A stretch of DNA of 64,000 bases from Sphaerisporangium sp. TRM90804 (GTDB lineage: Bacteria; Actinomycetota; Actinomycetes; Streptosporangiales; Streptosporangiaceae), in NCBI RefSeq assembly GCF_029846175.1, contig NZ_JARWAC010000017.1:62001-126000 (forward strand). Direction: 5' to 3'. The position numbers and the translations under genes are program-made. Numbering within the stretch: the stretch's first letter is position 1; every line of letters starts with the position of its first letter. This document shows, piece by piece, positions 9,213-47,847 of the stretch. Under the pieces are notes generated by a model. The model did not search any database. It was not told the origin of the DNA and saw only the letters and a list, made by a program, of their open reading frames with translations.

Positions 9213-9285
9213 GGGGCTATAGCGCAGTTGGTAGCGCGCCTCCATGGCATGGAGGAGGTCTGGGGTTCGAATCCCCATAGCTCCA
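9213..9285 (+). tRNA. tRNA-Ala (anticodon GGC), copy 1
   Basis: The cloverleaf reads directly. Acceptor strand GGGGCTA pairs with TAGCTCC (one G-T), the D stem is GCGC/GCGC, the anticodon stem CCTCC/GGAGG encloses loop ATGGCAT with anticodon GGC, and the T arm is TGGGG-TTCGAAT-CCCCA. The discriminator is A and CCA is not encoded. An identical gene lies at 14688-14760. Confidence 0.95.
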
Positions 9286-14687: not shown

Positions 14688-14760
14688 GGGGCTATAGCGC
14701 AGTTGGTAGCGCGCCTCCATGGCATGGAGGAGGTCTGGGGTTCGAATCCCCATAGCTCCA
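14688..14760 (+). tRNA. tRNA-Ala (anticodon GGC), copy 2
   Basis: Identical over its full 73 bases to the gene at 9213-9285, including anticodon GGC in loop ATGGCAT; CCA is not encoded. The identity extends one base upstream and four bases downstream. Confidence 0.95.
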
Positions 14761-45109: not shown

Positions 45110-45240
45110 AGCGAAAAGAGTAATCTAAAGGGACATACGAGGTCACAACGGATCTATCACCATAGGGCGTCCACCGGCGATTTCCCCCGCTCCACCAGTG
45201 GGGGCCCGGGAACGATATGAACTCCGATTGCACGCTGCGC

Positions 45241-45300
45241 TACGCTTGAGCTGTGCGTGGCGGGACCCTGCTTCTTGGCCGGCCGCGTCGACCGAGCTGA
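45241..45300 (+). promoter_or_regulatory. leuS leader: -10 element and Leu-codon leader peptide
   Basis: TACGCT (45241-45246) fits a -10, with a weak TGAACT -35 17 bases upstream. Seven bases later a GTG (45253) opens a 15-residue frame, MRGGTLLLGRPRRPS, ending at the TGA 45298-45300. It holds three consecutive Leu codons, CTG CTT CTT (45268-45276); CTT is rare in such a GC-rich genome. This is the expected sensor for attenuation by leucyl-tRNA. Confidence 0.7.
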
Positions 45301-45344
45301 CGCCGGCCGACGCGGCTGCCCCTCGTGGACACGAGGGGTTTTTT
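45280..45344 (+). terminator. Attenuator-like hairpin and intrinsic terminator before leuS
   Basis: CCCCTCGTG (45319-45327) pairs with CACGAGGGG (45330-45338), followed by six T (45339-45344): a textbook terminator 43 bases before leuS. Just upstream, CGGCCGCGTCG (45280-45290) can pair with CGACGCGGCTG (45308-45318, one G-T), a candidate competing stem that abuts the terminator. Confidence 0.8.
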
Positions 45345-45387
45345 GTTGGTCGAGCCACCGCTTTGAGCGAACCGAGGGACATGGGCC

Positions 45388-47847
<2,460 letters not shown>

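Follow-up and report, generated by a model that had tools for sequence, protein, structure and literature searches.

Organization of the leuS leader

The window analyzed here is a 64,000-nucleotide stretch (G000:C10:62001-126000) of an 8.3-Mb genome. We fetched 80 leuS loci of named records for comparison, among which the closest relatives of the window's leuS are those of Sphaerisporangium species (88% identity). An earlier sequence-only reading of this DNA had pointed to three elements ahead of leuS: (i) a 15-residue frame at GTG 45253 containing CTG CTT CTT; (ii) a terminator stem followed by six T; and (iii) a second stem adjoining the terminator. All three are read directly from the sequence (Table 1), and the stems were also recovered by folding. 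The terminator consists of CCCCTCGTG (45319-45327), GA, and CACGAGGGG (45330-45338), followed by the T run; at 45318-45339 it was the only terminator returned by a pattern scan, with a mean of 0.2 in shuffles. The two stems had been said to share few bases, and in the window overlap is possible at G45318 only, the sole base able to pair in either stem A or the terminator.

Table 1. Features of the leuS leader region, in window positions.
Feature	Position	Strand	Remarks
-10 element TACGCT (TAnnnT)	45241..45246	+	Read directly; 6 nt upstream of leader GTG
Leader peptide frame VRGGTLLLGRPRRPS	45253..45300	+	GTG 45253-45255, TGA 45298-45300; 15 codons
Putative regulatory codons CTG CTT CTT	45268..45276	+	CTG 45268-45270, CTT 45271-45273, CTT 45274-45276
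Predicted transient hairpin (strands 1:2)	45255..45288	+	45255-45261 with 45282-45288; growing-transcript fold
Stem A	45280..45318	+	45280-45290 with 45308-45318; folding and covariation
Stem A conserved core	45282-45286 with 45312-45316	+	GCCGC with GCGGC; 5 nt after last CTT
Intrinsic terminator	45318..45344	+	Arms 45318/45319-45327 and 45330-45338/45339; T6 45339-45344; compensatory changes
Shine-Dalgarno-like GAGGGA of leuS	45374-45379	+	Read directly
leuS, putative regulated gene	45388..47847	+	GTG 45388; TIGR00396 leuS_bact, 925 bits (cut-off 548)

The GTG had also been taken for a leaderless start. Its setting (TACGCT, 6 nt, GTG) is of this type, and the homologous LeuL2 peptide of Streptomyces lividans TK24, MRAVRLLLSEPR, was reported as leaderless from RNA-seq in 2021 (PMC8079986). 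We infer that the transcript begins at the GTG; a consensus scan found no sigma-70 promoter pair at the window leader. Translation of the frame is suggested by its conservation. LeuL2 is described as a leaderless-type, Leu-rich frame with a hairpin and a U run before leuS, as in the window, but the window leader differs in its GTG start and in a stop codon placed 9 nt further from the Leu run (PMC8079986). The LeuL2 peptide occurs unchanged at L111, L119-L122, and L126.

Folding of 45253-45350 gave -50.9 kcal/mol (z -2.07), with 5 of 200 shuffles as good, which taken alone is moderate support for the window leader. We regard the leader as more than a chance structure because it is conserved across the class. 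A search of the whole window against Rfam at gathering score returned two tRNAs only and nothing at the leuS leader; over 45150-45450 it gave three matches, all sub-threshold and none relevant. The two tRNA genes (9213-9285 and 14688-14760) have an equal Rfam score of 67.3 bits and are possibly copies. Elsewhere in the window, positions 361-1980 (G000:C10:62361-63980) encode an acetolactate-synthase-like enzyme within an 882-residue open frame, scoring 512 bits, slightly below the TIGR00118 cut-off.

Distribution and geometry in Actinomycetes

A search on start spacing and terminator found the leader at 59 of the 80 leuS loci, in addition to the window's own copy. Seven of these 60 were left out of the leader list (L001, which is the window copy, L040, L046, L059, L074, L081, and L082), and 12 further leaders, including L055, L057, L062, and L069, were omitted from the alignment as redundant or divergent. 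We built a covariance model, R1, from 42 aligned leaders, the window's included. R1 matches 60 of the 80 leuS loci, 41 of which had been in its training set. The 20 loci without a match comprise eleven from Nocardiopsaceae (L022-L024, L027, L029, L033, L034, L039, L041, L042, and L044), three from Kocuria (L050, L051, and L066), L013, L069, L077, L078, and L084, and L019, for which upstream sequence is missing. Trained without Streptomyces-titled records, R1 still recovers loci with the LeuL2 peptide.

A search of 394 Actinomycetes genomes from 138 genera with R1 gave matches at E<=1e-9 in 142 genomes, representing 52 genera. At E<=0.01 the counts rise to 242/394 and 97/138, but these include cimA and ilvB leaders, so 242/394 is not the spread of the leuS leader. 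We fetched 89 R1 matches (29 with the search and 60 more picked across families and scores). In 86 of them leuS lies downstream on the same strand, at 19-201 nt (median 87), and these 86 span 24 family labels by hand count. Of the remaining three, L150 lies at a contig end, L151 precedes cimA, and L157 precedes ilvB. Restricting the set to E<=1e-9 keeps 82 of the 89, 81 before leuS plus L150. TIGR00396 was the best NCBIfam match for all seven downstream proteins checked, which are partial. On these sequence matches the distribution of the leuS leader appears wide if patchy, and the window would be a member in another order than Streptomyces. A 2010 study by Lopatovskaya et al. (Mol Biol 44:128) may have broadened the distribution of leuS attenuators already.

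Both stems carry the compensatory changes that the sequence-only reading had proposed to look for. In the 42-leader alignment, 10 of the 16 pairs across the two stems change on both sides with pairing kept. In the alignment of the 89 matches, which is fitted to the model, the figure is 12 of 16, with 98.0% of cells pairing; in the same fitted alignment none of 500 shuffles reached as high a pair support, and slid structures gave 45-58%.

Geometry was measured on 126 distinct leaders, obtained from 131 rows by removing those with a gapped anchor (L153, L154, and L167, leaving 128) and those with no start (L151 and L168). The start codon is ATG in 91 and GTG in 35, and it follows TAnnnT by 6 nt in 101 and by 7 nt in 25. 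Conservation of the Leu codons in relatives had been set in advance as one test of an attenuator, and they are conserved: the last one is CTT in 118 of 126 leaders, CTC in 7, and CTA in 1, and its C and T are invariant in the 42-leader alignment. CTT, which would be read through wobble by a GAG tRNA, makes up 1.8% of the 5336 Leu codons within the 80 leuS coding stretches. A codon that is nearly fixed in the leader but rare inside leuS points to selection for a rare codon.

The distances on either side of stem A are constant, while the length of its loop varies. The last Leu codon precedes the stem A core by exactly 5 nt in 123 of 126 leaders; two of the three exceptions have CTT at 5 nt and one further Leu codon after it, and the third, L157, is an ilvB leader, with GTT at 5 nt. 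With both stems extended outward, the gap between stem A and terminator is 0 in 68, 1 in 30, -1 in 16, 2 in 7, -2 in 3, and 3 in 2, i.e., within -1 to +1 in 114 of 126 and from -2 to +3 overall. The stop codon follows the last Leu codon by 15 nt in 68 leaders, by 6 nt in 37, and by 12-30 nt in the rest, including four at 24 nt, one of them the window's. Modelled with a footprint reaching 15 nt from the P codon, a ribosome standing at the leader stop has its front edge at least 7 nt before the terminator in 126/126.

A model-free stem finder run on 59 leuS leaders of named species gave a spacing of 5 nt in 31, 4 in 11, 3 in 5, 2 in 2, 0 in 4, 6 in 2, and 8 in 2, with one leader lacking a stem and one a Leu codon. 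The deviations are mostly extra outer pairs, and in the four zeros (L065, L067, L069, and L086) the finder picked a wrong stem. Counting outward pairs, stem A begins 2-4 nt past the codon in 18 of 59 leaders, and 3 nt past it in the window besides, so the 5-nt spacing holds for the conserved core.

Four leaders follow a variant plan. L055, L057, L062, and L069, from one Glutamicibacter and three Arthrobacter records, have a single Leu codon (CTA), approximately 8 nt to the stem, a different terminator, and still a stem-terminator gap of about one nt. The Microbispora and Planotetraspora leaders L013 and L043 have diverged; on visual inspection of L043, the 3' arm of the stem seems to extend some three bases into the terminator, nearer to a classical switch.

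As in ribosome-mediated attenuators, a short frame with Leu codons is present and an intrinsic terminator lies between this frame and leuS; the order of frame, stem, and terminator before leuS is homologous to that of the Streptomyces leuS attenuator and LeuL2. On this comparative evidence, the window leader is very probably a leucyl-tRNA-responsive, ribosome-mediated transcription attenuator of leuS.

Sister leaders and related systems

From R1 matches in 23 genomes we obtained 20 further loci; together with L151 and L157, these bring the non-leuS leaders to 22. By tblastn (22/22), 16 are associated with citramalate synthase (cimA: L151, L181, L182, L184, L186-L191, L193-L195, and L197-L199) and 6 with acetolactate synthase (ilvB: L157, L180, L183, L185, L192, and L196). 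The window's own genome has one of each, L200 (cimA) and L203 (ilvB); the enzymes at these two loci and at L180 and L195 all pass curated cut-offs. The cimA leaders L191, L195, and L197-L199 keep the plan in genomes of the window's family that have no strong leuS match.

In the non-leuS leaders, ATC ATC ATT, GTA GTT, or CTT replaces the Leu run, followed by 5 nt, a mostly GCGCG or GCACG stem, a gap of approximately 0-1 nt, and the terminator. Ile codons precede cimA, and Val, Leu, and Ile codons precede ilvB. In the window's genome the cimA leader is MFSRLHIIGRRAG, with ATC, 5 nt, and GCGCGCCGG; the ilvB leader has CTT, 5 nt, and GCGCGCAGG; and leuA (L090) has CTT, 5 nt, and CCGCGGCGAGGG, without a terminator. 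L090, a weak R1 match (E 0.04), is a leuA LEU element at G000:C45:100594-100690 on the minus strand, MLRGLLLSRRGEGL, with a long GC stem. Applied to 25 leaders (the 22 non-leuS leaders, cimA and ilvB of the window's genome, and the window's leuS), the stem finder gave 5 nt in 15; on inspection by eye, 24 of the 25 place a codon for Leu, Ile, or Val 5 nt ahead of the stem core, the exception being L192 with 7 nt. That the codon tracks the amino acid of the gene while the spacing stays fixed is the strongest evidence for a ribosome-based mechanism. A single literature search showed no cimA attenuator among the papers listed.

This exchange of codons bears on the simplest alternative, a constitutive partial terminator or small-RNA end that does not respond to leucine and whose small frame is incidental. 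The Nocardiopsaceae and Kocuria loci do without the leader, and the leucine response is predicted from sequence comparison and folding. It would not, however, account for Leu codons, frame, start position, and codon-stem spacing kept over many families, nor for codons that switch to Ile or Val in step with the product of the downstream enzyme, and we consider it very improbable.

Among known systems, the closest are the leuS attenuators predicted in 2005 in Streptomyces avermitilis and S. coelicolor (Seliverstov et al., PMC1262725), in line with the earlier reading's mention of such predictions in Streptomyces. As described there, they share with the window a Leu-codon leader frame, two hairpins, and a terminator before leuS. 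They are filed in that account as classical, with an antiterminator, whereas we found no base-pairing antiterminator in the window, and the spread found here takes in many more families than that Streptomyces prediction (PMC1262725). The leuA LEU element treated in the same source also has a Leu codon run, and L090 has its CTT, 5 nt, and GC-rich stem, but the element is presented there without a terminator and with a proposed pairing of the Shine-Dalgarno region and a pseudoknot (PMC1262725). In the Corynebacterium ilvB-II motif, an upstream frame over a first hairpin, P1, precedes a terminator, P2, as in the window, and its reporter is described as high in minimal and low in rich medium (PMC10272879). 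The antiterminator proposed for it pairs the P1 loop with a P2 arm, whereas our window folds are pseudoknot-free (PMC10272879). Finally, the E. coli dnaX frameshift stem-loop starts 5 nt past the A-site codon, at the mRNA entrance, like stem A; it is reported to stimulate frameshifting, whereas the output of the leuS leader would be transcription (PMC7282821).

Folding and candidate mechanisms

We masked ribosomes in silico on 60 leaders in four states: no ribosome, ribosome on the first Leu codon, on the last Leu codon, and at the stop codon. Whenever the ribosome sits on a Leu codon, first or last, pairing of the terminator arms reaches at least 0.78 in 60/60 leaders. Mean terminator pairing is 0.93 without a ribosome, 0.976 on the first Leu, 0.985 on the last Leu, and 0.967 at the stop, and 52 of 60 leaders stay at or above 0.8 in all four states. 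L025, L032, L040, L061, and L085 fall to 0.58-0.79 in one or two states, and L074 falls to 0.0 with a ribosome at its stop. The Planobispora leaders L014 and L021 drop to 0.02 when untranslated and regain pairing with a ribosome on a Leu codon, which as modelled runs opposite to the behavior required of a classical starvation switch. A looser count, accepting any partner, puts pairing of the terminator 3' arm at 0.59 or more in the four states of the 60 leaders. Before that arm exists, the 5' arm is mostly unpaired (mean 0.17-0.40 over four states of 42 leaders).

The sequence-only reading had spoken of a textbook terminator and transcription attenuation, and for the switch the word textbook is not supported: pseudoknot-free folds yielded no base-pairing, mutually exclusive antiterminator in the window or in the 60 modelled leaders. 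It had proposed folding 45253-45350 to look for mutually exclusive structures; the fold contained both stems, and no such exclusive structures were found. The same reading had doubted that switching is classical, and since no such antiterminator was found, that doubt was justified.

In the classical scheme, stem A would be a 2:3 antiterminator sharing bases with the 3:4 terminator, with the start of the frame as strand 1. In the window a strong 1:2 hairpin is indeed predicted between the start of the frame and the stem A 5' arm, giving way to stem A once the 3' arm of the latter is made, and G45318 is pairable in either stem; L014 and L021 lose terminator pairing in untranslated RNA, and antiterminator hairpins have been reported for leuS (PMC1262725). 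Nevertheless, the 1:2 hairpin reaches P>=0.5 in only 59 of 129 leaders, and even after maximal extension stem A and terminator overlap by 1-2 nt in 19 of 126 leaders and not at all in 107. As a switch by folding we rejected the scheme, since in these folds the terminator stays paired in 60/60 leaders with the ribosome on a Leu codon, so that the starved state does not remove it by base pairing. We therefore consider classical switching a poor fit and unlikely.

We propose instead that stem A acts by abutment. Transcription would start at the GTG, a 70S ribosome would load immediately, and scarcity of Leu-tRNA would make it halt while a Leu codon occupies the A site. The 5-nt spacer would set stem A right at the ribosomal mRNA entrance, so that stem A remains folded. 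The RNA exit channel of the polymerase is narrow, the basis on which closure of a terminator hairpin could be hindered there. With only about 0-1 nt between stem A and the terminator, the latter would be unable to close fully in this channel unless the GC lock at the foot of stem A melted first, and polymerase would read through into leuS. When Leu-tRNA is plentiful, the ribosome would pass the last Leu codon and open stem A but stop short of the terminator, which would form and end transcription. Waiting on any Leu codon would leave stem A folded, and one step past the last would open it; in this model the codon placing can be called the tightest possible for a sensor codon.

The distances fit such a model. 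When the last Leu codon occupies the A site, this codon, the P codon before it, and the 5 nt add up to 11 nt. Counted from the first P-site base, the bacterial mRNA channel is given as holding 11 nt, and frameshift stem-loops placed at 11-12 nt are reported to hinder A-site tRNA binding on E. coli ribosomes (PMC7282821). Abutment is a steric rather than a computed argument, because equilibrium folds let stem A and terminator coexist. Stem A forms without a ribosome in 129/129 leaders (P>=0.58, folded to the stem A end), so the model, unlike classical attenuators, predicts readthrough of untranslated RNA. Against the proposal stand the single CTA codon and spacing of about 8 nt in L055, L057, L062, and L069, and the 20 of 80 leuS loci without an R1 match. 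Mutating the regulatory codons of S. coelicolor ilvB reportedly left regulation unchanged, whereas the reported effects of such mutations in leuA do not agree with classical attenuation (both cited in PMC1262725). These reports speak against the classical scheme in the sister leaders and are a warning for abutment too.

The main rival reverses the role of stem A: stem A and terminator would form a tandem terminator in which stem A favors termination. By stalling at the last Leu codon, a ribosome would cover GCCGC and block stem A, allowing readthrough, and under normal translation the ribosome would leave, stem A would form, and transcription would end. A ribosome covers 15-16 nt from the P codon, so with CTT in the A site its footprint ends on the last bases of GCCGC, and the spacing fits almost as well as under abutment. 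Untranslated RNA would terminate, and before the 3' arm exists the terminator 5' arm is freer with stem A formed: in 42 leaders its pairing is 0.30 without a ribosome and 0.17 with one two codons before the last Leu, compared to 0.34-0.40 with the 5' arm of stem A masked. However, the stall must be on the last Leu, since a ribosome starved on the first of three leaves stem A intact, and the terminator folds alone with stem A masked (mean 0.985 with the ribosome on the last Leu, 60 leaders). We judge this rather unlikely, although less so than classical switching.

Abutment itself, a steric model, could equally prove right or wrong. The whole explanation, Leu attenuation together with abutment and weighted to the former, is likely on the comparative and modelling evidence. 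Only tentatively do we extend abutment to a general actinobacterial design, in which a codon, a 5-nt spacer, a GC-locked stem, and a tightly joined terminator are combined. The stem would exclude the terminator sterically in the exit channel and compete with charged tRNA at the ribosome entrance; other codons would serve cimA and ilvB, and another output leuA.

Leader attenuators of leuS of such a kind are already known from a few Streptomyces. What is new, as far as sequence comparison and modelling indicate, is the breadth, the geometric rule, the sister leaders with Ile and with Ile/Leu/Val codons, and folds that contain no classical antiterminator. A leader known from a few Streptomyces thus appears widespread in Actinomycetes. 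It supplies a rule to search with and to mutate (a rare U-ending codon, 5 nt, a stem, 0-1 nt, and a terminator) and may offer a reason for the non-classical behavior of codon mutations in the sister leaders ilvB and leuA. If abutment is true, mutually exclusive RNA structures would need no common bases.
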